From Trichodelitschia bisporula (Eukaryota; Ascomycota; Dothideomycetes; Phaeotrichales; Phaeotrichaceae): a stretch of 64,000 nt of DNA. The DNA lies in contig ML996710.1 of NCBI GenBank assembly GCA_010356995.1, forward strand, positions 92,455 through 156,454, read 5' to 3'. Shown here one piece after another: positions 2,951 to 54,718 of this stretch. Position numbers and translations under genes: made by a program. Position 1 is the stretch's first letter; each line of letters starts with the position of its first letter. The notes below the pieces were generated by a model. That model did no database searches and was not told the origin of the DNA. It saw only the letters and a program-made list of their open reading frames with translations.

Positions 2951-4440
2951 TAGCCAGTGCCGTAACCGGAGCTGTGACCGAGAGCACGGCGCGGGGCCGA
3001 AGGCTGAGAGGTACTGTTTGTGAAGGAAGGTGGGTTTCCGCCGAGAGAATTATGGAACAGGTGATCGCCATCCATATAACACGGAGGGCCCTCAGACATT
3101 CTTGTCACACGCCTGAGAGTCCTTCCCGGTCTTTTTGAGCCTTCAAGCTTCCACAATACAGGGCTTATGAACAGGTACGACGTGCGGACACCAACCACCA
3201 TGGGGTCTTCTCCTCAGATCCACGATGGAATGGGGCGAGGGTCTAGTGAGCCTGCAATGCTGGAAGTATACGCCAGGGCCTAGATGTATTTACCCGACCT
3301 TCGGGGGCTTTGAGGAGCAGACATGGAGGGTGTAGCTATGGCACGGTATGTCAGCAGGCAGTGAGTTAGGCAAGTGAAAGTGTTCGAATTATTGAAGAGA
3401 GGGAAATGAAGTCCCCAGATCCACATATGGAAGTTATATAAAGAGGGCAATGGCTCGCCCCCTGATGCAAAGCCTTGCATCTCACACTGTGTAAATTGTG
3501 GATCTTCTATCGCAGACTCGGTTCCCAAAAGAACCCGTGCACTGGCGAAACATCATAGTCGCAGAGGCGAGGAAGCTGCGGTAGCATCGTACCTCACGAT
3601 ACGTGGTGTGCGAGCCGTACGAAGGACTCAAGAAACGTATACTGCTTTGGCGAAGGCCCATATCCTAACAAAAGATCAGCAAAACTGAAGGAAACGACAG
3701 GTGGTACACTCACAACTTGGAGTACCTTCTTGACGATCCGGACTTTGCGCAGCTTAACCTTGTATTTGCTGCTATGGCCGCCGTGCTTGATTTGGGACCG
3801 GGCCCAGAAGTCCGCTGGCCAGTAACTACATATGCAGTCTTGTTATAGTTGACGAGAGAAGGGGGGAAGTGCGCGGTAGTTGTAGCTGGTGGCTGTTATA
3901 TACCGCCCCAGAAGCGCCTCGATGAGGCGCGGCGGAGAGACTGAAGATCCGGGCAGGGATGTCCGGGCGGCGCCATTCATATGTTGCTCGAGCTCAGAGT
4001 GTTTGTGAGGACAGCGCAAATCGGTATATCGTTCGACAGTCTTGAATGGCGGGGCGGTTCGTAGGAGCGGCAATCCTCTTCCGGACTCAAAGAACTTCTC
4101 AATCTTGACATCGAGGCCAGCATCAGAAGCCAGGTTTGGAACGATGCAATCAATGGCAGAAGCTCACTAAGATGACAGTAGAGAAAGCGGCGCGGCGGTA
4201 TAAAAGAGGGTGACCTTCCCGAGCCACGTCGAGAGGCGTCGTGACCGGAGCTAGGACGCCGGGCTTTAGGATGGTCTTTGATGTGCCTACAGCACTGAGC
4301 TGAGGGTTTGGGACCGTATATACCTCGCCGGACCGTGGGGGGCTCGTTGAGGACATGGGGAGATTGACGCATATTTTTTTGGCCGAGCGGCGGCGGCTGG
4401 ATGATGCGCTTCAGAGCCATAGCAATGCGCTTGAAGATTG
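2951..4440. other. No intact gene; possible minus-strand exon remnants near 4.0-4.4 kb
   Basis: Two short minus-strand stretches look coding: one reads LDVKIEKFFESGRGLPLLRT near 4.10 kb and another SGEVYTVPNPQLSAVGTSK near 4.3 kb. They are in different frames, about 100-150 bp long, and I cannot assign them to families. The stretch also holds TATATA hexamers (3438, 3894 and 4316). Nothing else is recognised. Confidence 0.3.
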
Positions 4441-4566: not shown

Positions 4567-4696
4567 TACAAATTCAGCAAAGATCATATATGGCTGCTAG
4601 TTCAACCATGATTGATGGGTTGACGAGGAGCAAAGGAGTGGTTGTGGCTCATGGCAGAGCGAAGCTGCATGATAGCGAAACTGCATGATAGTGAAG

Positions 4697-4932: not shown

Positions 4933-5259
4933 GAATGCTTATTCTACACAATCAGCTAAGTATTCCTACAAAATGAACAAAGACCGATGAGATATCATGT
5001 ACAGCAGCTTAACCGCTGCTTCCACTGCGCACAAAATCGCATGAACTCAAAAATCTCAACTCAAACTCCTGGCCAACTCAGACATGGTCTGCCAAGGCCG
5101 TGAACGGATAAAAGCTAAGCAAAAAGAAAACAAAGTACCCCGCACTTGAGCTCCGTCATTCACCAATGAATCAGTCCTAATGGAATCACCTGATTTCTCA
5201 AAATCCGGGTGATTGGGGGCACCATCAACAGCCGGCCACCGTTCAACATTGCAGCTGAG

Positions 5260-7382
5260 TGCTGCTTGAGACCTCCGGTCAGCTCGAGGCGTGCAGCTCT
5301 CCAGCTGTCCGAGAGCTGCAATATGCAGGTGCTCAATTTCCTTGGGAAAGGCCGAGGCGAGCAACGATCATCTGCTCGAAACTTGCAGCCAGCAGTATGC
5401 GGGAAGACTTGTTGTCGTTCCATGCTCCACTGCCTCGACATATGAGGTGACGTTGATCATCTGTTCGAGGCACGCAACCATCATCTTCAACCTCCAATTT
5501 TGGTCCTGCAACAGTTCTGCCTCTATCCCCTTTACCTTCCACTTCCGACTGGCCCCAACCTTCCTCCTTTTCTCTCTTTGATCGAAAGGAAAGAATCTTG
5601 TCCCACCTCTTCTCTTGTCCCTGCATTCCTCCTGAAACACACCTTGCTGCAGAAACGACGCTCCCCGGACGAGCATTATGGCTGACCAAAAGACCCTTGG
5701 CGCCATCTCCGCTCTTTCGTCGTTCGGAACCGTCGCAAAGCTCGAATCATCAGTCGGATGGAACAAATGGCTGCGCGAAATCTCAGACCACCTCACCATG
5801 AACGGATATGGAGATCTGTTCACGCGCAACAAGTTCGAACCAGCCCAAGAGGGCTTGACGCCATTGGAATGGGACGCTAAAGGGGAGAGGTGGCAAGACA
5901 AGCAAGAGAGGCTTATGGCGGCAGAACGGGAAGAGCAGGCCCAGCAGATCCGGGACGAATACAAAACTGCCCTTCTGGCCAAGGCTCACCCCTCAGTCCC
6001 TGCTCCCAGCACTCCGGCTGCAGGTGAGAAGACTTTGTCCACATGGTCCCGTACCAGGGACGACCGCTCAAAGGCATTGGAGGAAAGCTCCTTCAACCCC
6101 AAGGAATCGGCATGATGAGACTCAACTGCAACTCGCGGGGAAGAAAGGTGCAACTCCTCCTGAAGGATGCGCTGTTCTGCCCCGATATGGGCGCCAACCT
6201 GATCTCCGTGTCACAAATCCTGCGCCGCGGTTCCAGGCTCACCATGACCTGGACAAAGGCCGAATTCCTCGGGTCTCAACCGCTCACCGCACGTCAAGAA
6301 TGCGGACTTTTCCTCCTCGACCTGTGGGAAGAGCCGGTTCAACATGGACTGCTCTCTCGCAAGGACGGCCTTTGCGGAGCCAAAGGAAAGACCCTCCCGG
6401 TTCAGCCGCCCACACCACGGCCCCGACCGGACCGGACCTACAAACTGTCTGATCCGAACATGCTCCTTTAGCACGACCGGATGGGCCACCTGGGCAAGCA
6501 GAACCTCCGCAAGCTCGCGCAAATGTCCTACGGCATGCTTCCAGTCAAGGAAGGTTGCCTCTGCGAGCCATGTGCACTTAGCCGGATGAGGGAAGTACCG
6601 CACAAGACGTCCATGGAGCGAGGGAAGTACCCTCTGGAGCTCATCCACACCGACATTGGTGGACCCTTCTCTGAGCCTGGACACGATGGATCGAAGTATT
6701 GGGCCACTTTTATTGATGACTACACCCAGTACGCATTTGCCGAACCCATCGAGCACAAATCCGACTTCTTCGGATGCGTGACGAACTTCCTTGAGCGACT
6801 GGAGCGGCCCGAACGGCGCTGCCACTGGATCCGGCTGGACAGAGCAGGAGAGAACAGGGACGGAGGTTTCCGCGCCTTTTGCGCCGACAGGGGCATCAAG
6901 GTCGAAGAGTCCGGCACTGAGCAACACCAGCAAAACGGCGTCGCCGAAGTGTACAACCGCATTCTCCTTGACAAGATCACCCCAACACTCATCCGCTCTC
7001 GCCTGCACCCGAAATGGTGGCCCGAAATCATCCGTGCCGTCGTGATCCTTCGGAATCTGAGCCCCAGCTCCGTCATAGACACCACACCCTACGAGGCTTG
7101 GTTTGGCGACAAACCCGACCTTTCATTCGTCCGTGTGCTTGGGAGCGACGGCATCGCCAGACTCCCGGACAATCGAAACGGCAGACGGGCCCGCAAGATG
7201 TTCGATGCAAAAGGCTTCCGGTGTAGGCTCTTGGGATTTCGAAGGCTCACGCAACTACATCATGGTCACTAAAGACGGCACCATCATGCGCACTCCGAAC
7301 GTCGTCTTCACGGAGAAGCGCTATCATCACGAAGGACTGGAACAGCCCATCACCTCACCCGAAGAAGCGTCAGAGCTTCCAT
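5260..7382 (+). mobile_element. Ty1/Copia element A, plus copy (gag, protease/integrase part), broken
   Basis: After a pyrimidine-rich leader, a Copia-type Gag begins at 5678 (MADQKTLGAI...). It is followed by protease-distal and GAG-pre-integrase sequence (6043-6471, with GANLISVSQIL) and an integrase core (6481-7260, including HTDIGGPF, FIDDYTQYAFAEP, QNGVAEVYNR). Reverse transcriptase and RNase H are absent, as are both LTRs. It is a fossil with several breaks. From 6000 onward it is repeated in reverse at 7600-8972, with only a few percent difference. Confidence 0.85.
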
Positions 7383-20380: not shown

Positions 20381-20720
20381 CTACTCTCCGACACGCGGGA
20401 TCTGAGCATTCAAAGCCCAGATTGCTGGCATGTTGGGGTTCCGACCGCCGCTGCTGGGGTCATCGGGCCTCGTGAAATCGAATAACAATGCTTTCTCCGC
20501 GCCGCTCTTGCCACCGTTCCAGCCTTGGTGAGCCCACCCATGGTTGTTTTCACTGCACCAACCATGCAGGAGATGATGGCGACAGCGTGCATCCATATCT
20601 GGTCGTGTTCGATGAGCACGACCAGACTCTGCCACTTGGCGAAGAACATTGCCGCTCATCGTTGCCCCGGCGGCATTCGAGCCGCCGTCAAGGGTGTGCT
20701 GCCATGAGGAGTTAAGAAAC
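20381..20720 (-). pseudogene. TOS1-like cell-wall protein remnant
   Basis: The minus strand reads GAEKALLFDFTRPDDPSSGG followed by NPNMPAIWALNAQIPR, which resembles the C-terminal domain of fungal TOS1-type (DUF2401) secreted cell-wall proteins, where a MPAxWxLNAxIPR motif is typical. The match ends abruptly after IPR, just before the carrier exon pieces; the Cys-rich remainder is absent. Upstream (to about 20.8 kb) the same frame stays open but is not recognised. Family call is by motif memory only. Confidence 0.45.
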
Positions 20721-23700
20721 TTGGCAAAGTCGGCAAGAGAGAGGCGACCTGACAGCTTGTCGATGAGGCAAAGTGGAAAAGGTGCGGCCGTGGTATATAG
20801 CACTGGTGGGATTTGTCCATGGAATTGGTGAAGATGTGCAGCGTGAAGACAACTTTGAGATGGTCGATGCGGGCTCTGTGAACCGCCGGCTATGAGCATC
20901 GGGATTTTTATGGTGGAGATGAAGACGTTTGAATAATTCGATGAAGTCGTCGGCGCGTACGATCCACGCTTGAGACTAGCGGCAATGCGCCAGCGCCTGA
21001 CTGAGTTAGGGACGGAAAGCGCTCGGGAGGGCAGGTAAACTAACCATAGCTGAGGGACCAGTACTTGTACCCTCAATGCCATGACCCAGATCAACAGAAT
21101 GCTGGACGTGATTGATGGCTGTCGCCGCAATGACGGCAGAGTATATACAGCCCCGAGCATCCGCACACACGCCGGACCCCGGCAGACCTCCCGCCCCCCG
21201 AACCCAAACACCGCCACAACTCTCCACAAATACAAGGGGATCCATCGAGTATAAAATCGAAAAATGAAACGCCCATGCAATATAGACAAAGCTGGAGGAG
21301 TGAAGGTGGCAGATGCATGTGGCTACTGTGCTGACTAAGAGAGAGGCTGGGGAGAATGCCGATGGCGCAGGGGAAGATGATGAAGCCATGGCTCATGAGG
21401 GAGAAAGTGAGCACGCCACTCACCCATCAACCTCACTCCGTACGCAAAATACTCGTGATGGATCATGCTAGTTCAAAGTGCCCTTGCTCACGAACGAGAG
21501 ATGCAGCCTGAGACGTCAGAGGAAGAAATGGCTGGGGTGCGCACACTCACCATCACGGGTCATTCCCGGTTTGTGAGGAATGCCAGCTGGAATGATCACA
21601 ACGGTGGCACCGGTGGGGCACCACGGAGACCAGTGCTGGGGGAATCGCAGCCCTGGGGCTGCATATATACAAACCGGGAGTCAAACGGCAAGTCCGCACA
21701 AAATTCTCGCCCAGCCATGGGGAATGATGTCCTGGAGTAAAAGCACATTTTTCACGGCAGCAACGTTGATGAAATGATGATTTACTCAGCTTGAGCGGTG
21801 TTGAGGGATGAAAGGCTGACGCAAGTTGAGCGATGTTGAGAGATGCTGAGCGGTGCCGTTGGAGCTGATATTGAGGTGATGGCGATTGGCGTTGATTGAT
21901 GATCTGGGAACGTGAGCAATGCAGACACGAAGAGTGATGCACATACCGATGACATTTGAAAAATGCGTGAATGGCTCGTCTTAGCTTCTCCCTTCCGAAG
22001 AAGAGATACTAGACCCCAGCACCGCGATGAGGTGCGAGCCGTCGCTAGGGAAATGAAATGAGAAACCTGTGTTGCTATTTACATGATACTCAGAATCCTT
22101 CGTCTCCTCAACAGTGCCCTCAACCCCGCCAGCCGCACCCTATGAACAAGATCGCATATTGACTGCGCTTGATCTTATGCTGCTGCAGTTAGCACTATCA
22201 GGCAGTGAGAGGGGCGCGACTCACGTAATCCTCCCCAGAGTTAAACTCCGTTTTCTGTTACGGAATGCACCACATAAACAGTAACATCAATCGCAATGAA
22301 GAGCAACACACTGTACGGAGAGGGTGCACGTAGAGAATGGTGAGGGCGCGGTGGGGCAGTGTTCGAGCTGAAGGTGACTCTCAGCTCTGTGTTGTCGGCC
22401 TGGGCCATTGCCGCCGCAGTGCACCGGCAATCTGGGCTGGGAGGGAAAGAGGATCGGAAGTGCAGGTCGATGTGTGAGTGATGTGAAAGAGTTTGGAGCA
22501 AGCAGTCAGAGGAATTTATACCTACGTCGCGAAAGTTCTGTCCAACGAAGTCCTTCGGAGATGCCGAGTGTTGAGAAGGAAGACTGACGAAGGCCTTGAG
22601 TGATGCGGAGTGATGAAGTTGAAGATTGAAGAAGGCTTGCAAAGTGAGGAAGGAAGTGATTGTGAAGGACCCCTGCACTTCACGTCCATGAATAACGACC
22701 GCGAGTCCGAGGAATCTGGGACACCCTCCCCTTCCCAGCAGCTGCTTTGCCACCCGGTCCGCCTGCACAAAGCTGTACCCGCGTCCCAGCGACTCAGTCT
22801 CTGACTGAGTGCTGTAGAACGACGGGCCCAGCGCTATGCAAGGCCAGGATGTAGATGTCATGATGATGATGATGGGGAATGTCATGAGGTAATGAGGAAG
22901 AAATGATGATGAAGATTATTAGTGAAGATACCATGACCACGAACGCCCCGACCGCGCAACGAGCGTGCGACACGCAGCATCCGAGCTGAAAGTGCCGCCA
23001 GACGCGCACGAAGGCGCGCACCCAGCGACGGACTCCTCGTCCCCCTCGACATTGGTGAAGTGGAACGCGGCGTCAAAGTGAACGAGGAGCCCTTTGTAGT
23101 CAAGGCCCTTGCCCGCCAGCTCAGCCTCCCGTCCAATAAAGCGCTCCTTGCGAGAGCAGTTTTGAGATGTGAATTGAGTGCAACTCTCAGTCCACATCTG
23201 CTTGCCCACTGTCAGCACCCTGAGGCCAGTCTTCATGGACAAGGAGCTTCATACCTGTGATGAAGAAAAGTCGCAGTGGCTGAGGTCGCGCATGTGTGTT
23301 TTGATGCCACTCTCTGACCACTTCAACCACGGTTTCGAGGTGACAGACTGAGGGGCACACGGGCTTGTGAGTGGACAGCAGCAGGGAAAATGAGAGACAA
23401 AAACATACCGATGAACTTGAGAGCATGCAGCAGATGGAGAGTCAGAGGCGATATAGTCAAAGCCAGGTTTGGTCATCCAAAGCCTAGCTCGACATCTGAA
23501 GCCCAACAGCTTGAAGGATGAGGATGAGGCATGACAAAGAAGGACGGAAGACAACGAGTGATGTTTGAGTGATGGAAAAGAAGCCCGAGAACTGCTGAGG
23601 GACTTGAGAGTCCAGAGAGGTGACTTTGATATAGCAAAGAATGATTGAGAAGAATGAATGGAGTTTGAGTGAAGCTTGAGTGATGGGTGAGAGATGAATG

Positions 23701-42660: not shown

Positions 42661-44100
42661 TCGCGGCTGTGCTTGATTAATCTGAATGCAAACGGAGGCA
42701 AAGTGGGGTTGAGTCACGAACCTCTCGGCGTAGGACCTTGGAATTTGGTCCTCCGAGCCTAGGGCTTTTTCTCTGCCTGTTATCGCTTTTACCCGTGGCC
42801 CATGTCAAATACGCTCCCGTTAAAACTTCAGTGCATGCTTCCGAAAGTCGCGGGAAGAAGTATGTAATGAGATGAATGATGAGCTGCCCTGTTGTGGACA
42901 AATGGTGATTGAGAGCTTGAATGATGTTTCCATACTCGTTGCGGATCATAGGGCGTCCGCAGCAACACTTGCATGCAAAGCGGTATATAGAGAAGTATAT
43001 GATGAGGTGTGTTGATGTTGAGGAAGAGGAAGAAGAAGAGGAAGATGTTGGGGATTTGGAAGAACTTTTACCTCCCGCGGTGAAGGGAGAAAGTGCTGGA
43101 GCAGTGAGTCACTTTTCGGGTTACAAAAAGGGCAGTGACGGCCCAAAGCACGTGCTGGTAGGTACCCCGCGCGGCCGCCTGATTCTGACGGTCATCAGCT
43201 TCACTGGGCTGTGGTGGGGGCCAGGCGTTGGCTGCCCCTCGACCGCCATAACAGGCAAGTACGGGAGGCTATCTATCCACTTGCCTCAGCCTAATGGTGT
43301 TGTGTACCTCTTTTGCATTGTGTCCTTGTGAATTTGAGAAGCTGCCGTAACAGGAGTCGTGGATGGAAGACATTTTTCTGCGGCCATGGAGATATATTCC
43401 CCCGAACAATGGGACCAAAAGCTATTGTTCATCAAGACTACAAGAACTGATTCTGTGAATTAAAGAGAGCCGGTGCTCAGTGACGACTGGCGTGAATATA
43501 TACGAGATTCCACGAAAGTGGAATGGGTCATAGGAGTTGAGTGGAATTCTACCGGCAGGCCGAAGGGACTGTACCCCTTATTTTGAAGGCCTTCATAAAA
43601 GCTGCCAGTAGCCACGAAAAGTTCCATTGAACTCTACGCCCTGAAACGTTGTGCGGTGAGCGGTGCACCATATCAGGGTGAAATCATATGGTAGAGTAAG
43701 AATCACAAAATTCTCCTGATTTTCCCCGGCTGTTGCATCATGATATGTATGTTCAATTTGTGTCCGATGCGGTTTCCGAAGGTCCATACAGAGAGCTAGT
43801 TAAGCTAGCGGCTAGATACAAGGTAGTTATGCCAGGCCAAACCCCCCTGAAGGGACGGAGCCCTGCTTTTGGAGGAAACCCCTTTTTGATGACCTGGTAG
43901 CGCTCGGTCGAGCTCCGGGCGCCAGCCATAGGTCTTCAGTCGAGCTTGAGGTTGTTATTTAATAGAAGAGAAACTACCTAACGCTCTTGGCTTCGCAGCC
44001 ACACTTGTTCACTTATCTCCATGTGATCCGTTCCTGTGTAGGTCCAAAGGGGGTGGGTGCCGATCCCCTACGCCTTGACGCATCAGACGTTATAGGCGTA
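42661..44100. other. No supported gene
   Basis: The minus strand around 43.0-43.1 kb is a pyrimidine-rich, leader-like tract (plus-strand GAGGAAGAAG repeats). A 64-codon minus-strand frame at 43787-43593 (MDLRKPHRTQIEHTYHDATA...) looks mildly coding but is not recognised. TATATA occurs near 42983 and 43497. Confidence 0.35.
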
Positions 44101-44104
44101 CCGG

Positions 44105-45119
44105 TTAGGTGTTAGGTCTAGGCCGGGTCGTCGCCGGTGGCTTCGCCGGGGCAGGCGACGATGGAGGTAGAGGAGAGGGACGTGTTAAACTTGCTCCCTC
44201 GTTTGCTCTAGGTGGAGGTAGAAAGCTCCGGAGGTCGCCCTGACTAGGCATTGGTCGGCTCTGTACGAGCGGTGGTCGTCTTCGATCGCGCTTTAGGGTC
44301 TGGGGGAAGGCAAGCCTTGTGGTAGTGTTGGGGCCGGGGGTCGCCCTCGGTAATGCCGGGACCGGGACGGTCTCCGGTTGTCCGGCTCCGTCTGTGACGG
44401 TGACTTTCTGGGGCTGTGGACTCACCTTTCGTGAAGCCTGGCGTTTGCTAGATGAGAGGGAGCGCTGGTGATCTACACGTGCCGTCTGCTATATGGCAGA
44501 TAGGGTGGGCGTTAAGGTGATTAATACCCTGGCTCTACTCCGGCTACGCATTAGACGGACGGACCGTCGAAGGTACGAGTGTAGCTCCGGCGGTCGAGTG
44601 CTCGGTTGCTGAGCTAGGGCCGGCGGAGTCGACGTCTATCTCGTTGGGGTCGGTGGCGGAGGAAGCGTCGGGCGCGCTCCGGTCTAGGGCCTTGCCCTTC
44701 TCCGCTTGCTTTGCTTCCGCCTTCTTCTTCCTGTTGTGGGTGACCTTGATCTATACGTTTGGGGGGGGTCCGCGGCCCGGCCCGGTGTCGGCGTTGCGTC
44801 GATTGATTTCTGGTCGGTCTCTATAGCTGGTCGGGTTCTTGAGGCGGTACATCGTCTTAAGGCATTTGGCGCGCAGCTCTGCGAGCTGCTTGTCGTAGTT
44901 CGTCCACTCGGGACAAGCCGTACGCTGGTCTGCGTTACGGGTATGCGTCCTCGCCAGCGCTGGCTGGGTGCAGACAGCGCACTTCATCCGGCGTGCGTCT
45001 CCCTTGTGGGGACAGGCGGAGGCCCGGTGCTCACGCACGCAGTAACCGCAGTGCGTCTCTCGTCGACATGTGTTGCATCGTGATATGCAGAAAGTCGAGT
45101 CACTCGGACGGAAATTCAA
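44105..45119 (-). mobile_element. LINE (Tad1-like) ORF1 remnant
   Basis: The minus strand from 45119 encodes three CCHC-like knuckles in the spacing typical of ORF1 of fungal Tad1-clade LINEs: CNTCRRETHCGYCVREH, then ACPHKGDARRMKCAVCTQ and ACPEW. The frame runs to 44751; a lower, shifted frame (about 44735-44530) continues with a Lys-rich and Asp/Ser-rich tail typical of ORF1 C-termini (KKKAEAKQAEKGKA). A Pro-rich frame follows at 44425-44105. No APE endonuclease or reverse transcriptase (ORF2) is present. Truncated at both ends, with at least one frameshift; clade is by resemblance only. Confidence 0.6.
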
Positions 45120-46360
45120 AGGATGGAAGTTTCTTGCAACTCAACAGGATAGTCCGGGAGCATCAGGTTGATGCTCTCAACCTGAAAGCGCATATATGTC
45201 TGAGAAACGCCAGTCAAACCCTTTGACATGAAGAAGTTGATGGTTCGACATCTAAGGATGCATTCCGCTCCATTCTATATATCTAACATTCCCAGTGGGC
45301 CAGCGAAGAGGCATCCCTCCCCATCAATCCATTTCGCCACGCCACAGACCCGCTTTGCTGAGGAATTTGGACATGCTGCATTGCTACGGCCGTTGACGGC
45401 GGCGGCGGGACAGCCGCCGTTGAAGTAGTAGACGCAGACGTCGAGCGTGAGAGGACCGCGCCGCATGAAGAAACGGATGGGTTTTGGCTTACGGAGGCTG
45501 TTCGGATTGATGATCCGAACCAGCCATTGAGTCTGAGTTACTGTCTCACCGGAATTGATGGCATGTTTCCGTCTTCATACGCGGCTTCGTCGTTAGCAGT
45601 GACCGTCTCATGATCCACCGTGTTTTCCGAGGCGTCGTGAGAACACTGGTCCGTGGTACGAAGGCTGTCGCCGGCACCATCACTGATAGATGCAAGCCTG
45701 CCAGAGGAGAATATTCGGGCTTTCATAGAGGGAACGCCTTCTGAGGCTGAATGTCAGGAGTGGGGTCGCTGTTAGGGGACGGCGTTGCCAGCTGAGAATG
45801 GAACGAAGAATGAACAGAGAGGATGTGTTGACTGGTGTTTTCAAAGGTGGCCACTGCTGATGTTGGGCTTGGGTTCCCGCACAGTGTCGGGGTCAATTAT
45901 GCGGATCGGAACATTTGCCTGAGTGACGGTGTGGTTGGAATGGTTGCCGGCCTCATCGTCCATGACCTGGTCCTCGGTAGTAGCCGCTTCGTGGCCCAGC
46001 GGGTGGTCCTGAGAAGAAGTTGGACCGCGTCACACTTGTCAGTTTCGGTAATGCCAGAGTCCGAACTTTTGAAAGGTGTTGTATCTGTCATGGTCTGAGC
46101 ACGCCAGGCCCTGCCAGGGCGTTGTTGAACCATACTACGTGATGCAGCCGCTCGGTGCCAAGCCCAGGGCACTGCCACCCCACACCTGCATTTCAGTTCT
46201 AGACCTTCGACATTTCCTCTTCATAGCAGTATTTTCTGTCATACCCGCATTCAGTGCATTCGATGTCCCAGACGTTGCCCGTGACATTATCGGAGAAGCC
46301 ACAGAGTCAGAACTATTTAAAGGTGTTTATCAGAGAAGGCGCAGAGCCCGAACTCTTGAA
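45120..46360 (-). pseudogene. Unidentified exon-like remnants, partly duplicated at 47.1 kb
   Basis: The minus strand at about 46010-45930 reads GHEAATTEDQVMDDEAGNHS, nearly the same as GHEAATTEDQIMDDEAGNHS at 47153-47080, 1.1 kb away. A related acidic stretch (HDASENTVDHETVTANDEA) lies at about 45620-45560. These look like repeated fragments of one acidic, low-complexity protein region. No gene structure is recoverable, and the family is unknown. Confidence 0.4.
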
Positions 46361-46366
46361 AAGTGT

Positions 46367-46613
46367 TGTCATGGGCGCACAAATCACTGGTTGCACAGCA
46401 TTGGTTGTGGAATAACATTCATTGAAAGCTTGAAGAACTATGTGAGGGTTTCGCGTGTTAATGTGGAGTGTGGGGGAGCTGGGGGTGCTAGCTCACAGCC
46501 AGCGCCAAGTCCTCACCCCTGCAAGTCCAGTCGGGCTGGAATTGCAGGGATCAGGCATCAAGCTTACCGAGTCACGTGACTTGACATGGGAGAGATGGTA
46601 TCCTCCCATGACA
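46367..46613. mobile_element. Solo LTR, family F4
   Basis: 247 bp, TGTCATGGGCGC...CTCCCATGACA, with a perfect 5-bp target duplication AGTGT (46362-46366 and 46614-46618). The ends form a 9-bp inverted repeat, so a DNA-transposon MITE is an alternative; the TG...CA ends and 5-bp duplication favour an LTR. Confidence 0.8.
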
Positions 46614-47034
46614 AGTGTTATCAGAGAAATCGCAGTGCTTAGCGGGAGTTGAGATGGAGGTCTCCGAAAGACTCATCATGGAGGAGCGATGGGCTGTCGC
46701 CGGTATATAAGTGGCTCGCAGTCGTGCAACCACAGTGTATAAAGGCCGGCGAAGGTGTGAATTGAGTGAAGGAGAAGGACTTGTTGTATTTGAGAGGATC
46801 CAGCTGGATGCGCGTCTTGACGCTGCGCCGGTTAGCAGGCGTGCGGCTGCATCATTGCGGGTAACTTACACATCGACTGGGGTGAGTGCGCCATGGGTGA
46901 CGGAGCAGAACGGCGGAGCAGAAGATTTGAGTTCGCAAGGCTGTACTCTGACCGTACCTTCTTGATGTACTCATCCGGATCTTCTGTCTTGTCTTCTCCG
47001 CGGAATTCGCTGCAAATGACCCGCCAGGTGGGCA
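46614..47034 (-). other. Exon-like patch, unidentified
   Basis: The minus strand at about 47030-46890 reads WRVICSEFRGEDKTEDPDEY and IKKVRSEY, coding in appearance but without a recognised family. A TATATAA lies at 46701. Confidence 0.3.
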
Positions 47035-47490
47035 CTATATACTGCACACACTGCCCCCGGCCTCGGTCACAGTGTTTTCGGAATGGTTGCCAGCCTCGTC
47101 GTCCATGATCTGGTCCTCGGTAGTAGCCGCTTCGTGGCCTGGCAGGTTGGTCGAGGCGTTGTCAGGAAGCTGGTCAACGTATTGCGGCTTGACGACGGCC
47201 TTGAGGTTGTCCTCCAGGACTTTTGTGAAGTAGTCCGCAAATATATCAGTCTTGCTGAATCCACACTCCGTGATTGAGCCAGCCTCGAAGGATGCAAACG
47301 CGAAGACGAAGTCGGACATCGAGACCGTTGGCAGTACAGTTCCGCCTATTTCATTGAGTACCTCCGTCAGATTCTCGCACGATGCCAGGCGCCGCAGGCC
47401 GATTGTCAGGTGGCGTGAGCAGCGGAAGCAGCAGAGCAGTAGGACCACCTTCCAGAGGGATGTTTGGCCGCTCAAAACTCGTTCCAGCAC
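47035..47490 (-). pseudogene. Unidentified host-gene remnant, 151-codon open frame
   Basis: The frame includes MSDFVFAFASFEAGSITECG and FSKTDIFADYFTKVLEDNLK, then the acidic GHEAATTEDQ segment shared with 46.0 kb. It has no recognised domain, and its right-hand part (LWKVVLLLCCFRC) looks unlike the rest. TATATA occurs at its left end (47036). Probably a fragment joined to other fragments. Confidence 0.4.
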
Positions 47491-47975
47491 GGAGACGCCC
47501 TGGCGAAACTCGGTTGGACGGACTCAAGTGCTGTATCCTGGACGACGGCGGCGGGCAGGTTACGCTGTCTCTTAGGGAGATTCGTCTGAGCGCCTTGGGA
47601 GTACGATGGAGTACGATGGAGTACGATGCTCGCGCGGAGGAATGTGATTGTGCTTTTTCACAATCGTCATCCTCCGGGGAGCGGTGCTGAATGCCCTTTT
47701 GTCAGCCGCGTCGATGCAGCACTGCTGTTCCTCATCGGACTCGGGGCTGAGTGCGGATGGCTTCCACATGTGCGTCCGGCCGTATATAGGTACCACGGGC
47801 TTGCGCGCGGTCTCTCGTCTCTGGCATGGAAGGTGAGGCTCGAATGCGCGGGTCCGACGATGTTCTCAGTGCGCAATGAAGGATGAGGGTGAGGATTCGA
47901 GTGGCTCAATTGCCGTGGAGGCTGATCACTCAATATATAGTCTTCCTCTGGGAAGGTATATACACTTTGCCCTTC
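47491..47975. other. No gene recognised; 11-bp triplication
   Basis: GTACGATGGA is repeated three times at about 47600-47629. Three TATATA hexamers lie at 47781, 47934 and 47957. Otherwise nothing is recognised. Confidence 0.4.
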
Positions 47976-48345
47976 GGAAAGTCCTCCACGCCCTTCTGCT
48001 TGACCCCAATGAAGTCCGACTTCCAGTTCCAAAGGCACACTCCTGCGTATGTTGCAACAGGAGGAATTTCGAAGAATTTGCATGTCTCTAGAAATGGAAC
48101 GGAAAGAGACTTCAGTGGCCCGATCGCCTGTGACGAACGTCTGAGCATCACCCGCCACACCAAGTTTGTTGAAAGCCATAAGTCCAAACACCGTTTCGTA
48201 GATTCCGAAACGCGTGGTGGAGTAGGCGTGTTGGCGAATGAGTGAGGCGGAGAGCTAAGTGGGTCAGTGGAGGGTTCATGCGTTTTAGGGGAAGGGGAGG
48301 GGAGGAGGGACGTACGCCGCACGAGATACACGTTATACCCGTTAG
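47976..48345 (-). pseudogene. Spliced remnant of an unidentified host gene
   Basis: The minus strand reads TNGYNVYLVRR at about 48345-48315, then a GTACGT donor, a CACTGAC branch-like site and an acceptor near 48210, then IYETVFGLMAFNKLGVAGDA and QTFVTGD to about 48130. The two exons join plausibly as one protein (an exact frame was not tested). What follows toward 47.98 kb is not recognised. The family is unknown to me. Confidence 0.4.
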
Positions 48346-48639
48346 TGTCCCAGGCCTCGCTCTACCGGTGCAAAGGGCGGGCTGAAGTTGCCACCGTGTG
48401 TCAGGGGCCCACGGCAATCACTGTGACCAGAGTGTGGGTTTAACAAGCATTGATTTTACGGGGAAGAAGGTGGGTAGTATAGGAGCGGTGAATATATCTG
48501 GGGCTTGCTTAGCGAGGAGCCAAGCCTTCCCATGGGCGGGAACTTGTGCCAAGCCCCACCACCTCCTACCATCTCTGCTCCTTCAGGCTTACATCCATGA
48601 CACCGTGTCAGGTGACCGGATATAAGGGGGAAACGATGA

Positions 48640-48908
48640 AGACAGAAGAATGGCGCTTCATCAAGTTGGCCATCTTCTTGCTGTCTTCGGGCGAGAAGTG
48701 GTACTTCTCCCGCAGCACATCCTGTAGAGCTCACGGCCGCAGGCAGCTGATAAACAAGGGTAAGTATGAGAAAGAGCGTGGGTGGAAGGGCAGTGTGCAA
48801 GTTTGAGGAAACGGAAGTGGAACTTACTGGGTTGGAGATCCGCTTGATGTCACCGTAGATGGCGAATTGGTCCGCCGTAAGCGTGCCGGCCATGAAGAGA
48901 CGCGCGCC
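48640..48908 (-). pseudogene. Spliced remnant of an unidentified enzyme
   Basis: Exon part 48908-48828 reads RLFMAGTLTADQFAIYGDIK and ends at a GTAAGT donor (48827-48822). After an acceptor near 48740 the minus strand reads DVLREKYHFSPEDSKKMANL (to about 48640). Strongly coding in appearance; I do not recognise the family. It is joined without gap to the malate dehydrogenase fragment to its right. Confidence 0.45.
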
Positions 48909-49084
48909 GATGTTGGCGTCCGGAGAGTACTGTGCCGCCGCCTTGGCGAGATCACGGACGACGGAGGCATTTGGGTTGAGCAGATCTCAAACGTTAGGAG
49001 GATCATTTGCAAGAGCACGCACACATACCAACGCGGGACAGGCCCGGCTTGCGAAGACGTCGGGACACCCTCGAACGCCGCCGC
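48909..49084 (-). pseudogene. Malate dehydrogenase exon fragment with intron
   Basis: Minus-strand exon 49084-49029 ends RKPGLSRV; a 43-bp intron (49028-48986; GTATGT, CTAAC, GAG acceptor with TTTGAG) follows; the next exon (48985-48909) reads DLLNPNASVVRDLAKAAAQY then SPDANI, spliced in frame through Asp. This matches the NAD-binding-domain segment of NAD-dependent malate dehydrogenase (family: RKPGMTRDDLFNxNASIVxDL). The catalytic Arg/His region and the rest are missing. Kept introns show capture at DNA level. It is fused to a HAD fragment upstream. Confidence 0.65.
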
Positions 49085-49186
49085 TTTTTCAAGGATCTCA
49101 TTGGTGAGCTCGGCCCATGTCTCAAAGGCAAGCTCCTCGCTGAGAACGAGCGTGTTTTCGCAGTCGAAGATGATTGTCGAAACCAT
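49085..49186 (-). pseudogene. HAD-family hydrolase N-terminal fragment
   Basis: The minus strand from an ATG at 49186 reads STIIFDCENTLVLSEELAFE and ETWAELTNEILEK. DxExT near the start is the nucleophile loop (motif I region) of HAD-superfamily hydrolases, with FDCENTLVLSE typical of a fungal phosphatase-like group. Only 34 residues remain; the sequence then becomes malate dehydrogenase in another frame. The cap domain and motifs II-IV are absent. Confidence 0.65.
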
Positions 49187-49270
49187 CCGGGACTGCTATA
49201 GTGACGTTGGAGTCGTTGGCGGTCCCTGTGGAGGAGCAGTCGCCATCGCAGCAGTCGGAGACCATGGTCA

Positions 49271-49402
49271 CAGAAGAGTGGCCGGGTCGGTTAGAATCTT
49301 GGACACGATGCGGGCGCCGTGGATCGGGGGGTTTGAGTAGAGCGGACGGACGTGGACCTTGATCTGCGAATCCACGTGCGCCTTCTCCTCGATGAAGTGA
49401 CG
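49271..49402 (-). pseudogene. Aspartate aminotransferase exon fragment
   Basis: The minus strand reads DSQIKVHVRPLYSNPPIHGA followed by RIVSKILTDPATL. This matches the class-I aspartate aminotransferase segment RPxYSNPPxHGARIVxxIL, just C-terminal of the PLP-lysine region. The family sequence breaks off after DPA and is followed by unrelated sequence and the HAD start 85 bp further on. No flanking exons are found. Confidence 0.65.
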
Positions 49403-49659
49403 CACAGCGAATGTATAATGAAAGATGATTTGATGGATGTTGAATGATGATGAAGAATGTTGGGCAGACTGACTGATGAAACAGAGAGCCGTGAAGGATA
49501 TACAGAAGATGGAACTCACGATGAAGTGATGGTGATGATGGATGAATGGAGTTGGGAGGAGAGGGAGAGGAAAGTTGGGAATTTAAAGTCCCGGGACTGC
49601 AGTGTGTGGGTCGGTTGCGTCATAGGACCGCCGGGAAAACCACACTCCGAAAGAAAGAG

Positions 49660-49795
49660 CAGCATGCGGAAGGAGCTGCCCTCAGAATGAGGAGTACACC
49701 GTGAAAGGGGCATGGGGAAAGAGCAGCATGCGGAAGGAGCTGCCCTCAGAATGAGGAGTACACCGTGAAAGGGGCATGGGGAAAGAGCAGTATGA
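49660..49795. repeat. 64-bp tandem duplication
   Basis: The unit beginning AGCAGCATGCGGAAGGAGCT and ending GGGGCATGGGGAAAG occurs twice in near-perfect tandem, with a third partial copy. Confidence 0.9.
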
Positions 49796-49799
49796 GGAA

Positions 49800-50789
49800 G
49801 GAGCAGCTCGGAGAGAGCAGAGGAAGGAGCAACTCGCAGAGGGGGCAGCAGGCTGAGATACCGATAGGCCGAGAATTGAGCAGGCGGCTTGATTCCGGAT
49901 GCGGCTCAAAGCAGTGTGCGGTTTTGAGCAGCGAGCGGCTTCGAAGAGTAAGGAGCTTCGTGGAGTGAGGGGCGTTTGGCAGTGAGGGGCTTCGAGTAGT
50001 GTGCGGGATGAACAGTTCAGTGAGAAAACAGCATGCTGAGGGAGTATGAGTGACATGAATACCGAGAGAAATGCAGGAGAGATATGAAACGCTGAAATAA
50101 CTATGGAATGAAGTTCAACACTTTACGCGTTGGAGCGTAGAAGGATTTTCCGCCGGAGGCAGAGGGATCTCGTACTCACTCGCTGGCGTAATCGCGGGGA
50201 GAGCAGAGACTATCTTGAACGGGGACCATGGTAATGGACCACTAGCAACGCATTCAGTCCTGAAATCCGCCCGTTGCCGTGAATATTGTGGCCAGTAGCG
50301 TAGAATGAATTCCTAGAAATTAAAATGAGTGCAACCAGTGTCAGCGTTGTCAACAGGCCGGCAAATCCTTTTGGACTCTGTCAATGTGCATCTAGCTTCC
50401 GGGCGAGTTCTTTGTCTCTCCTTTATCATCAAGAATTAACTGAGTCATGTTCTTGTTCATTTTGCTCCGCGTGATTACTTCACCAAAGGCCGCAGTCTCT
50501 GCGCGGTGGTGGGCGTGAGAGCGGAAAAACCGGCGGAGTGATATGTCTGGCCGGTGTGGCGAAATTCACCAGCGTGGTGGGCCAAACGGAGAACGATGGG
50601 GAACAACCCATGGACCAACGGAACGAAGACAAAGGAAACAGGATAGAAGAAAAAAGAAGGTGGGAATTGCGTTTATTCGGAGCCGTTTTTACACAGTTCA
50701 ACCTACCGTATTCTCGCCGCATCAGATTTGGGCGGTGAGAAGTCGGGCACATGCGGCGGTGACGTCGGGGAAGGACGCTGATTGTCTGG
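49800..50789. other. No gene recognised
   Basis: Purine-biased, AGCAG/GAAGGAG-rich at first, then ordinary unique sequence. Short frames (50480-50989 minus) lack support. Confidence 0.4.
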
Positions 50790-51500
50790 CGGTATGGCCG
50801 GTCTTGTATTCCTGCCCGTAACCCGCTTGCTCTGTCCAAGTCCAAGGGAGGACGTTGATGTTCTTGCACTGGGCGGATGGGGTAGAGGGCTAGGACGTAG
50901 GAGTATGCCATCGTGGGGCAATGCATATTTGAGGTGTGGTGTCGGGGCGTGCGGGGTACAAGTACTTGCGCGGCGGGGGCAGGCGGCAAGGCGGAGGCGA
51001 AGAGCGAGTCAGAGTCAACGAGCGGATGAGCGGATGAGCCGGTCTCGTGTTCCTGTCTATAACCCGATCACTCCGTCCCAACCCAAGGGAGGATGTGGAT
51101 CCTTTGGACTGGGCGGATGGGGTTGAGGAGCTAGGACGTGGGAGTATGCCATCGTGTGGGAGTGCATATGCGGGGTGTGGTATCGGGGCGTGAGGACTAT
51201 AAGTACTTGCGCGGCGGAGGCGGGCAGGGCGAGGCGAAGGCAACGAGCCGGTGAGCCGGTCTCATGTTCCTATCTATAACCCGATCACTCCGTCCCAGCC
51301 CAAGTGGGGATGTGGATGCTTTAGACTGGGCGGATGGGGTTGAGGAGCTAGGCCGTGGGAGTATGCCTTCGTGTGGCAGTGCATATGCGGGATGTGGTAT
51401 TGGGGCGTGCGGTGTGCAAGTACTTGCCCGGCGGGGGCGGGCAGGGCGATGCGGAGGCGACGAGCGAGCCAGAGGCAACGCGTGGATGAGCCGGAGCTCA
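50790..51500. repeat. Three-copy tandem repeat of ~220-240 bp
   Basis: Copies are anchored by GGATGGGGTTGAGGAGCTAG-like cores at about 50876, 51114 and 51334. Each holds a CTATAACCCGATCACTCCGT-like segment, GGGAGTATGCC, and AAGTACTTGCGCGGCGG. Copies are diverged by point changes and small indels. Open frames on both strands across the array are compositional. Confidence 0.9.
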
Positions 51501-52680
51501 GTTCTAGGGATTAAAACTGTGCTATGCACTTCCAAATGTGAGGCAAGTGACAGTGCAATTAGAAAATCGCGTTAGAACTCTGAAGCTCATAACGCCGAGC
51601 CTTGCATGAGGGCCTACGCATACCCGTATGTTAGAACCACACCAAAAATTGAATTCCCGTGATGCTGAGATGCTGCACATGACGTTGATTAACCATGCTC
51701 AGCGCCCCAATCGTTCTGCACTAACGAGAGCGAACGCCTTGAAGAGAACGAAAGGGAACTCCAAACCAAAATAACTAACGAGCTGGTGACGTAGTTGCGT
51801 TTCATCCAGAGCAGCTTGACTGCCCGCACTTCATGGCATCAAAACCCCCCGCCCCCACAAGGCTAACCCCACCAACAATCCCCGCACCCATCCCCCACTG
51901 CAGAGCCGCATCCTGCTCAGCTATCCGGCATTCGCCCAACCCGGCGATCGGCAGCCAGCAAGTGGCGAGCAGCAGCAGATAAAGCTGGGCATCGACGCAT
52001 GTCGCGATAGTGGGGCGCCGTGAGTGGTCAAGCACTGCCCGGGATGCCTCGCGTCGGCCCGGATTGGTTAGTGCGGTTTCCCAATGCGGTTACGTGCGGG
52101 TCACGTGCAGGGGTAGGCAGCCTGATGAGTGGATTTGTGAGCGGGCAGCCTGATGCGGTGGGCGGGCTGAAGTTGATTAAAGGTGGGGGGGGGGACGGGG
52201 GGATTGCGTTGAGGCTCTTTGAGTTGTTTTGCTGCTTTTTGGACGAGGGGTTGCTGCGGTTTTTTTGCGGTATGTTGGCTTTGAGGCTCGTTGCGGGTCT
52301 TTGGCGCGGCAAGATGACTTCGGGGATTTTGTGACTTCGATGTCAATAAAAGCTTTACCATAGCCATGGATGAGGACGCACCGAAGGCTTGGACAGCTTA
52401 TGGGCCACGGCCCCGGTGATGCGGCTCAGACGATGCGGCTGAAACGACATGGCTCCGGTCAGACTGCACCTTCCCGCACGGCACCAAGGGTGAGATTCCA
52501 AAGTCCTGGGACTATCGACAATAAAGCTCTGGCTCGCTTTGTTTGCTGCGGCTAAATGCTTCGGGCCGTGGGACTGCGTGGTTTGTCGATTTCGCCTGCG
52601 CGGCCGTGGCACTTCGACGATCCGGGCGCTTGAGACGGACTCGGATGTACGGTATGGCACTATACTTCCTATACAGCGCT
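51501..52680. other. No supported gene
   Basis: A G-run lies at about 52185-52201. A minus-strand frame (52035-51802) reads LYLLLLATCWLPIAGLG, a possible membrane segment, without other support. Confidence 0.35.
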
Positions 52681-52683
52681 AAC

Positions 52684-53269
52684 TTACGTTTCTCGTAGTA
52701 CCGGCAGCAGGTTCAAACGGCTCATTCAACGCCGCGGTCGCATTTGTACACACCGCCACAGGGCCATCGTCAGTCAAATCGGATACACCCGCGCCGGCCC
52801 CGCACAGAGGCAGCGAGTTGTTGAGTCGGGTGGCATTGAGGCTCCACTGCTTCATGTCCCCTTCAAGACTCATTGCTCTTCTTTCCTCCTTCGATGGCTC
52901 TCGGACTAGCAGGATCGCGGATACCGGCCGTCCACGCTGCGTGCGTAGGCCCTGCTCAGCCCGCCACCTTCCAAAAGCTCCAAAGGTTCGGCCGTACGCT
53001 CCTACACGGCACTCGCTTACGAGCATACAGTGGCAATGCCACTCACACGACGGCCGTGCAACAGCGGACATCGCATTTGTACTTACCGATGCGGAGTCGC
53101 CATCAATACCATCTCCCGTACACGCGCCCGCCGGCCCGAATTCCACAACAGCGACGGGATTTTGAGGTAGCTGACGCTGAGTCTTCGCCGTGTTCCTCTG
53201 CTGCATGTTGCTGCAAAGCGCATTGGTGTTCATGGCTTGCGGCGAGATGCTCGGTGCTGTGACTACCAT
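52684..53269 (-). CDS. Doubtful spliced gene, Cys/Thr-containing product
   Basis: The minus strand has two coding-looking patches, each ending at a perfect GTAAGT donor: NPVAVVEFGPAGACTGDGID before the donor at about 53091, and VSDLTDDGPVAVCTNATAAL before the donor at about 52689. The matching acceptor and the downstream exon were not identified, and no domain is recognised. The repeated V-A-V-C-T/E pattern could reflect an internal repeat. It might be a small secreted-type protein or another remnant; the structure given is only the span of these patches. Confidence 0.3.
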
Positions 53270-54028
53270 ACTGGTTGGCGGTTTACGGTGGACTGGACGC
53301 GGCACTCTGGCGTGTTGGACGGCTTGTGAAGGACATACTCCGGAACTGCGCGCCTGCACTGCGGCGCGATCACGGCCCCTCGCTTTTGGCGTGGCTGGTT
53401 TGGGAGCTGGTTTCCTTCTTATGGTCTTCGCCAGCTTCGATGCCCGTTCCTCTTCTCTATAGTGGCGAGAGAACAGCGGGTGTCGAGACTGCCGGTCGGT
53501 CAGTTTACTCTACGCGAACAGCCATTGCACTCGCTGCATCTACTTGCTCCGGCTCCGACACCGACTCTGCACACCTACACGGTACGAAATCGCGGCTCTT
53601 AGGTCCCGGTTTGATTGGCGTGGAGGCTTGGTCTGCTTCTTCTCCTCTGTTTTGGCTTAGGGGCTCATTTCTCTTTCTTTGGCGCCTCCTGGCTTTGAGG
53701 CCCGTTGCGCATCCCAGGTTACGTACTTTTTTCAACCTCCGACGCTCTTCTTTTACTGTACGTCGAGAGCTGCAAAGATGGTGGCACTGCGACGTCATCC
53801 CGGTTACTCCGCGCGGACTGTGCCACTGAATTGCGCTGGCTTGGACCCTCTGAGAACGTCAGCTCTGACGCCATGTCGCCATCACACTACACAACGCCGA
53901 GATCACGTCGCTGGTGTCCGGAACAGTGCGATTAGAGGCTCTCTTGCTCTTTTTATTACCTCTCAAGATGCCTACGGAGTTGTTGGACTGAGGCTGATGG
54001 CGTTTTGTTTGCTTCATGTGAGAAGGCT
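53270..54028. other. No supported gene
   Basis: Overlapping plus-strand frames (53275-53829, 53679-54077) have no domain or splice support. Confidence 0.35.
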
Positions 54029-54205
54029 CTGGCGACTAAGCAAGGCTGTGACAACTGATCAAGGCTTCAGCGACTAAGCAAGGCTATGACGACAAAGCAA
54101 GGCTCGACGACTAAGCAAGGCTTCGTGTGAGAAGCCTCCGGCCATTAAGCAAGGCTTCGGCCACAACAACATAAGTAACGCCTCAGCGACTAAGCAAAGT
54201 TGACA
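54029..54205. repeat. Minisatellite on the motif GACTAAGCAAGGCTTCG
   Basis: About eight imperfect units (GCGACTAAGCAAGGCT and variants). The reverse complement of the unit makes the array at 29843-30017. Confidence 0.8.
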
Positions 54206-54718
54206 CGGTTAAGAGGGGCCCTCCAACGGCCCAGCGGCGAACGACCAGCCCCGACGCGGCGTCTCCAGCTCCCGAAGGCGACGAGACTACGACTCATATC
54301 CCCTGCGCTCGCCGTCTTCGAAGATCAGTTTCTCCACGTTTCCTGATTCTCGAAATCGCTGAAGGTGGGCCGGACTACGAGACATAAGCCGGCGATGGAT
54401 GAGGGCATATGGGGGCTTGCGCTTATTGCGGCTTGGACGCGTCGCTCACGGCGGGTTCAATACCACAATACCAAGTTCTTGCTGGGCGACGCAATCATAG
54501 CTTTTGGCTTACGGACGCTCCGTTGTCTCGTCGTGTTGCGTGTTGGTATAATTCTCGTGGCGGGAGGCTGACGCGGCTCAGATGGGCCACCCTGTCCGGC
54601 CAGTAGCTTGTGACGCACTCCGAATCGGCGACTCCAGCTCCCGAGCAGCGGTGGGATTACGACTATGAAGGCCCTGGGTCCGCACTCTTCGAACTCTGCT
54701 TCTTCCCTCTTCCTACTA
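54206..54718. other. No gene recognised
   Basis: GC-rich unique sequence with two related short segments (CTCCAGCTCCCGA near 54265 and 54630). Confidence 0.4.

Follow-up and report, generated by a model that had tools for sequence, protein, structure and literature searches.

A one-orientation patchwork of host-gene pieces in Trichodelitschia bisporula, possibly copied from diverged functional templates

How do short pieces of unrelated host genes come to lie end to end, all facing the same way, in a fungal genome? The question is raised by a stretch of 64,000 nucleotides from the dothideomycete Trichodelitschia bisporula (C24:92455-156454, contig ML996710.1, in the 25.65-Mb, 30-contig assembly GCA_010356995.1), called the window here; C and L numbers denote contigs and parent loci of this assembly. 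A sequence-only reading of positions 48,640-49,402 had described four host genes fused as exon fragments within these 763 bp. The analysis revealed a larger structure, the main patchwork, which occupies 45,353-49,411 of the minus strand (4,059 bp) and contains 13 host pieces of 27-159 bp whose parents are eight unlinked genes on seven other contigs. The mosaic, its single orientation, the retention of introns and the codon-position pattern of its divergence are directly visible. We tentatively explain them, with slightly less than even confidence, by a dead patchwork of copies of transcribed host genes, assembled by template switching from diverged functional templates.

Parent genes were sought in the same assembly. 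Used as a strand-blind DNA query, the 763-bp stretch matched, besides itself, C6 (query 350-494, 83%), C14 (659-734, 84%) and C21 (484-560, 82%). The E-values of these three matches (1.4e-35, 8.8e-16 and 1.3e-13), together with best native protein matches of 3e-17 for aspartate aminotransferase (AAT) and 1e-11 for a HAD hydrolase, exclude chance. For the AAT, HAD and second-carrier pieces, the protein search gave the native gene as best match and one weaker native relative each. A 6.5-kb DNA search around the stretch, in which 40 of 56 candidates were scored, added C27, C2 and another stretch of C21; overlooked pieces were recovered with shorter queries, and all pieces were then placed by local blastn against the fetched parent loci. 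Identity of the pieces to the genome's own genes ranges from 74 to 96%. The genes of the main patchwork encode AAT, the HAD hydrolase, malate dehydrogenase (MDH), two mitochondrial carriers, two kinases and a DUF7611 protein, and their families were assigned by Pfam (Aminotran_1_2, Hydrolase, Ldh_1_C, Mito_carr twice, Pkinase twice, DUF7611-7613). The finer names, namely phosphate carrier, SR kinase, HAL kinase and, further below, aspartate/glutamate carrier and glycogen-binding protein, are what we take these genes to be.

Read along the minus strand, the patchwork opens with AAT, which the sequence-only reading had named correctly but had taken for one fragment. It consists of two stretches, piece a at 49385..49411 (parent on C1, L050:4896-4922; 96% over 27 bp) and piece b at 49280..49390 (L050:5016-5126; 83% over 111 bp; the parental open reading frame matches Aminotran_1_2 at E 1e-78), joined across a 93-bp in-frame deletion between two copies of GAGGAG, a 6-bp exact overlap. 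The HAD piece follows at 49086..49177 (C15, L055; 81.5% over 92 bp; parent Hydrolase/HAD_2). In it the second Asp of a motif, which we take to be DxD, is replaced by Glu. An MDH piece with a 43-nt intron lies at 48909..49053 (C6, L038; 83% over 145 bp), its splice acceptor changed from CAG to GAG. AAT, HAD and MDH with its intron stand where the earlier reading had put them, each with a homologous gene elsewhere in the genome.

What had been called an unidentified enzyme with an intron is most likely a phosphate-carrier piece, the second of two in the patchwork, which sits inside the MDH exon at 48843..48919 (C21, L035; 82% over 77 bp; Mito_carr, E 3e-42). The MDH exon end 'ATCTCCAACCC', followed by a GT donor, comes after it at 48824..48838, assigned by alignment and too short for an E-value of its own. 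A 79-bp intron-like stretch then leads to an SR-kinase-like piece at 48669..48744 (C14, L039; 84% over 76 bp; parent Pkinase), in which a tryptophan codon has become a stop. The 763 bp therefore hold five genes instead of four, and the claim of little or no spacer between them is borne out at two gaps (-11 and 4 bp) but not at the other three (102, 32 and 79 bp).

The patchwork also continues well beyond the extent first assumed, down to 45,353, with three more genes and another phosphate-carrier piece. Downstream of a 204-bp repeat comes a piece of a second mitochondrial-carrier gene that starts within an intron (48193..48270; C1, L051; 81% over 78 bp; Mito_carr), then the C-terminal piece of a HAL-type kinase (47618..47749; C27, L036; 86% over 132 bp; Pkinase, E 1.7e-50) and a first piece of the DUF7611-protein gene (47415..47573; C2, L037:4966-5124; 82%; parent DUF7611/7612/7613). 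An upstream piece of the HAL-type kinase (46942..47008; 82% over 67 bp) is followed by phosphate-carrier piece 1 with a 47-nt intron (46780..46911; 89% over 132 bp), two dispersed repeats, and two further DUF7611-gene pieces, a later part (45702..45807; L037:5697-5802; 78% over 106 bp) and the start-codon region (45353..45389; L037:4591-4627; 95% over 37 bp). The phosphate carrier is thus present twice, at sites some 2 kb apart of which one is the MDH exon, and the DUF7611-gene pieces are reordered relative to their parent (4966-5124, then 5697-5802, then 4591-4627). These pieces also carry an in-frame stop, which makes two stop codons among the pieces. Distinct bases assigned, repeats included, add up to 1,890 of 4,059 bp, of which host genes contribute 1,237 bp.

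Coding sense is kept in all 13 pieces. Under a DNA capture blind to orientation this would have a probability of about 2.4e-4 if the pieces are taken as independent; such a capture is therefore an unlikely source of the single orientation, which comes naturally to chains made from transcripts. Two pieces retain an intron and a third keeps the end of one, so that the templates were DNA or unspliced RNA. The same-strand, intron-bearing, multi-gene origin seen in the sequence-only reading is in this way both upheld and enlarged. Few junctions can be read. Besides the AAT deletion, MDH passes into the phosphate carrier via a common ATC (3-bp exact overlap) and resumes after four unassigned bases, and the frame is kept across both MDH-carrier-MDH and the AAT deletion. 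The remaining host-to-host junctions are unreadable, as the pieces there are separated by a repeat or by 30-443 bp that have no assignment. These few cases suggest that the pieces were joined through short overlaps.

A second patchwork lies at 20,382-22,239 of the window and comprises six pieces of five genes, all on the minus strand. Genome searches with 20,384-21,000 and 21,000-22,300 gave five stretches on C9, C11 and C20. They are the 5' piece, with a 45-nt intron, of what we take to be an aspartate/glutamate-carrier-like gene (22143..22239; C11; 80% over 97 bp), a piece of a gene presumably of the glycogen-binding-domain type (21715..21756; C11:535225; 90% over 42 bp), the 3' piece of the same carrier (20623..20782; C11; 83% over 160 bp), a piece of an unnamed gene (20546..20631; C20; 80% over 86 bp) and one of a Tos1-like cell-wall gene (20382..20503; C9; 85% over 120 bp; PF10287, E 4.6e-10). 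The sixth, an MDH piece that ends at a 3' splice site (21508..21599; 74% over 92 bp), emerged from comparison with the MDH locus; it is flanked by the two pieces of the single carrier gene. As the search of 21,000-22,300 did not return it, weak pieces escape such searches. Nine bases belong to both the carrier alignment and the C20 alignment, with mismatches among them. All six pieces are in coding sense. For Tos1 this is judged from Pfam, for MDH from the native gene and for the carrier from third-position bias together with open frames; for the glycogen-binding-like and C20 pieces it is judged from open frames alone. The Tos1 match came from a reading frame at 20.4-21.3 kb and was the only one above cut-off when 20 reading frames (20-24, 27.9, 42-46 and 47-53 kb) were run against Pfam. 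Five of the 12 parents of both patchworks are of mitochondrial shuttle type (MDH, AAT and three different mitochondrial carriers, the third presumably named correctly).

Where the pieces came from is indicated by the way in which they differ from the genome's genes. Codon positions were tabulated for 12 of the 13 main pieces, without the 37-bp start-region piece. Over both patchworks, positions 1 and 2 differ at 79 of 1073 sites (7.4%) and position 3 at 183 of 533 (34%); the changes at positions 1, 2 and 3 number 30, 20 and 129 in the main patchwork and 13, 16 and 54 in the second. Copies of the genome's own genes that decayed freely should approach 1:1:1.7, because changes in a piece hit all codon positions and changes in its parent hit silent sites. 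This ratio is rejected for both (P about 1e-11 and P=0.002). At third positions, divergence does not vary significantly among 11 piece groups (P=0.84), the two AAT stretches being merged. Replacements are conservative, with a mean BLOSUM62 score of 0.29 compared with about -0.7 expected (P 2e-4 to 9e-4), as determined from 24 of 39 replacement codons that are single-step, the 15 multi-change codons being excluded. The substitution spectrum of 11 pieces (27-bp and 37-bp pieces excluded) is symmetric (C>T/G>A 54, T>C/A>G 51), and the 105 silent differences show no marked difference between pieces and parents in the use of preferred codons (P=0.36).

Judged from these alignments, the divergence profile is that of two working gene lineages. 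Since dead copies do not diverge in this manner, the codon-position skew and the conservative replacements make diverged working genes the probable donors. The sequence-only reading had assumed the genome's own genes as parents; these are homologous to the pieces, but the codon-position pattern argues against them as donors, most clearly in the main patchwork. The two stops, the changed HAD motif and the changed splice acceptor speak for some decay after copying. All this is most simply explained if the pieces were copied from a sister lineage, or from a second gene set since lost, and then spent a shorter time as dead DNA. Repeat-induced point mutation was rejected as a source of the changes, as the spectrum is symmetric and only 7 of 54 C>T/G>A changes stand in a CpA context. 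The 93-bp coding-like stretch that occurs twice in the patchwork (45917-46008 and 47060-47152) was tried as an internal clock and offers too few mismatches (13).

In the preferred course of events, repeated template switching on transcribed host genes would first have produced short copies, strung together with a single orientation. Functional homologues that had diverged from the genome's genes would have served as templates, either in a sister species or in a second gene set since lost, and the finished patchwork would then have resided in a transposon-rich region and decayed slightly. Of these elements, donors from a sister lineage seem rather probable to us, whereas template switching is a mechanism that we rank first with some hesitation, with DNA or RNA as possible template. 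Entry into the genome may have occurred through hybridisation, horizontal transfer or lost homeologues. Remnants of a whole second genome do not seem to be spread everywhere: a small test with the 10 kb that surround native MDH brought up nothing beyond the two MDH fragments and, on C2, an MDH-like match (66%).

Several observations weigh against this account. The sister lineage is a hypothetical donor, and 2,169 of the 4,059 bp of the main patchwork are unassigned. Switching at the level of DNA would not by itself account for the single orientation. GC content at third positions is lower in pieces (0.50) than in parents (0.60) at the 105 silent differences, some hint of decay. The introns of the main patchwork are less diverged than a plain two-species model would lead one to expect: outside splice signals they differ at 11 of 62 bases (18%, from two pieces only), third positions at 129 of 364 (P=0.005). 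In the second patchwork the corresponding values, 24 of 60 (40%) and 54 of 169, are akin (P=0.27), which fits diverged working donors. Intron divergence hence differs between the patchworks (P=0.009), a contrast masked in the pooled count of 35 of 122, which excludes 16 intron bases of the second-carrier piece. Where the two MDH fragments of the window overlap (68 aligned bases), shared departures from the native gene are few (2 of 8 third positions, 2 of 43 intron bases) and are outnumbered in each by private ones, so that the two patchworks need not have one donor in common. Finally, in a trio made up of native MDH and the fragments on contig 25 and at 21.5 kb, the 21.5-kb fragment fits plain capture from the genome's own gene.

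This last point belongs to an older capture from the genome's own genes, after which the copies would have decayed neutrally and the parents changed at synonymous sites, an account that we consider improbable. In the MDH trio, changes confined to the parent number 0, 0 and 8 at positions 1, 2 and 3 and those confined to the 21.5-kb piece 9, 6 and 5, and a shorter time since copying would suit the small divergence of the main patchwork's introns; the rejected 1:1:1.7 ratio and the conservative replacements stand on the other side. The third member of the trio, L058 (C25:282547-282886; 340 bp, 86%), stops where the fragment on C24 starts (query 241-580 and 577-721). In its first two exons 6 of 51 third positions are changed and in its two introns 9 of 101 bases, and in the last exon 16 of 28 third positions; for this abrupt shift at the exon border we offer no explanation. 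Only a little more probable than own-gene capture is a Helitron or Pack-type element (Mutator-like or hAT) that captured the fragments, the carrier suggested by the sequence-only reading. Plant elements do perform short, same-strand, intron-bearing capture of several genes. In fungi, capture of histone H3 by hAT elements is reported for Pyrenophora (PMC3538342) as well as for Pseudocercospora, Cercospora and Sphaerulina (PMC6710886), and 27 putative gene captures are reported for Fusarium Helitrons (PMC5148889). Here, the genome yielded one Helitron_like_N relic, a weak partial match on C4 (profile 98-148 of 191, E 1.8e-5), and no full RepHel, the search having used Helitron_like_N and not the helicase domain. 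A genome search with the 1,289-bp upstream flank (49412-50700) found no second copy. Convincing terminal inverted repeats are lacking in 43,000-54,500: among repeats of at least 16 nt, the length scanned, there are four pairs of 18-22 nt with 76-83% complementarity, the longest being 22 nt at 77%. No other locus with two adjacent pieces occurred among 47 matches of the 6.5-kb search, in which 40 of 56 candidates were scored, and nothing seen marks the patchwork as cargo of a multi-copy element; Helitron ends and 3' hairpins, target-site duplications and MULE or hAT proteins were not searched for. Such an element would also leave the codon-position pattern unexplained; the suggested carrier is not supported.

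The RNA version of template switching doubles as a rival, for a tail and spliced templates are missing. A chimeric cDNA, made by a reverse transcriptase that jumped between unspliced nuclear transcripts and inserted its product, would account directly for the uniform orientation; frames that we take to be Copia-like lie within the window, and a tripartite chimeric retrogene arose in Magnaporthe by template switching of a long interspersed nuclear element (LINE; PMC2104539). We regard it as rather unlikely, given that no run of A or T of at least 8 occurs in 43,000-52,500, that the MDH and phosphate-carrier pieces retain introns, and that internal pieces of one gene are reordered. Equally doubtful is a relative of the preferred reading in which a related species supplied genes or unspliced transcripts, with a leaning towards the mitochondrial shuttle, that were chopped, chained in sense and lodged here. 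We think it very unlikely that the locus is under selection, be it as a chimeric gene with a function or as a source of small RNAs. The pyrimidine-rich upstream stretch and the kept frames at MDH-carrier-MDH and the AAT deletion could be read in this sense, and small RNAs against spliced native transcripts would yield silent exon change without intron change, which is what the main patchwork shows. Function is opposed by the stops that interrupt the SR-kinase and DUF7611 pieces, by the altered HAD motif and by the MDH acceptor; no frame spans the 763-bp stretch, and the second patchwork lacks the intron contrast. A variant in which native genes were selected to evade silencing by the patchwork suits the main patchwork but not the second and leaves the conservative replacements unexplained; it is retained only within this weak rival. 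Least probable of all is an assembly mis-join or contamination: the pieces are 74-96% identical to the genome's genes with no closer copies among the matches listed, and the contig carries repeats common to many contigs.

Compared with known systems, the finding is unusual. In plants, chimeras of many host genes are known to give rise to new genes, and Pack-MULEs and gene-capturing Helitrons form multi-gene, intron-bearing fragment mosaics there; in contrast to these, no element ends were found here among inverted repeats of at least 16 nt. Templated insertions at DNA breaks in yeast, the topic of PMC11724301, offer another comparison. Such insertions likewise consist of short pieces and can come from several loci, but no orientation bias is expected of them. 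The hAT transduplications of histone H3 in Pyrenophora tritici-repentis (PMC3538342) and in Pseudocercospora and relatives (PMC6710886) likewise concern ascomycetes and copy host coding sequence into repeat-rich DNA, with chimeric frames in Pyrenophora. They involve one gene in tens to hundreds of copies and a hAT element, whereas we find at least eight genes, no second copy of the patchwork and, among inverted repeats of at least 16 nt in 43,000-54,500, no such ends. In Magnaporthe grisea, LINE template switching also fused several templates; the chimeras reported there combine retrotransposon transcripts and a noncoding RNA in up to three parts, with 14-bp direct repeats (PMC2104539), unlike the many internal pieces of intron-bearing protein-coding genes found here, for which no tail was seen. 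Fusarium Helitrons (PMC5148889) indicate that host-gene capture is possible in fungi, and Pleurotus Helitrons are reported not to capture host gene fragments (PMC4289320); unlike these fungal Helitrons, our locus comes with no full RepHel found, Helitron ends not having been looked for. Accessory and B chromosomes resemble the locus in carrying fragments of many core genes in repeat-rich DNA, and differ from it in that the pieces here measure 27-160 bp and share one orientation. In the accessible parts of the open-access literature on gene capture, LINE chimeras, break repair and accessory or B chromosomes, no fungal multi-gene mosaic in one orientation was found; the fungal cases there are single genes copied by a transposon, Helitron-carried genes and retroelement chimeras.

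Dense patchworks of one orientation, at least two of them in a single fungal genome, offer a place to study how chimeras form without an obvious transposon, and the donors were probably not the genome's own genes, although the introns of the main patchwork speak against this. If they belonged to a sister lineage, the pieces would record a past hybridisation or transfer that gene surveys overlook, because single pieces are too short for annotation. Patchworks from a foreign lineage would further point to a route of exchange of gene pieces between fungi that is independent of known transposons.

Some further features surround the pieces. The upstream flank (49412..50700, minus strand) is pyrimidine-rich beside the AAT piece, with 61-73% C+T in four stretches of 49,412-49,660. 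The 204-bp repeat, at 48399..48602 on the minus strand, has relatives on C1 and C21 (79-81% with a gap of 29-30 bp), both of which lack about 29-30 bp that are present in the window copy. Two dispersed repeats were found by the 6.5-kb search, one of about 203 bp (46085..46286) and one of about 270 bp (46367..46613), several copies of which lie within 1-4 kb of contig ends, so that the latter is perhaps subtelomeric. For the duplicated coding-like stretch mentioned above (EAATTEDQ..., 85% between its copies) no parent gene was found. Directly downstream of the patchwork, on the same strand, a cysteine-rich frame at 44754-45140, which by eye we take to be gag-like, matches no Pfam family above cut-off. 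Rfam identified one tRNA over the window, and a 28-bp match (96%) to the DUF7611 gene locus at 3868-3895 is possibly a further small piece.
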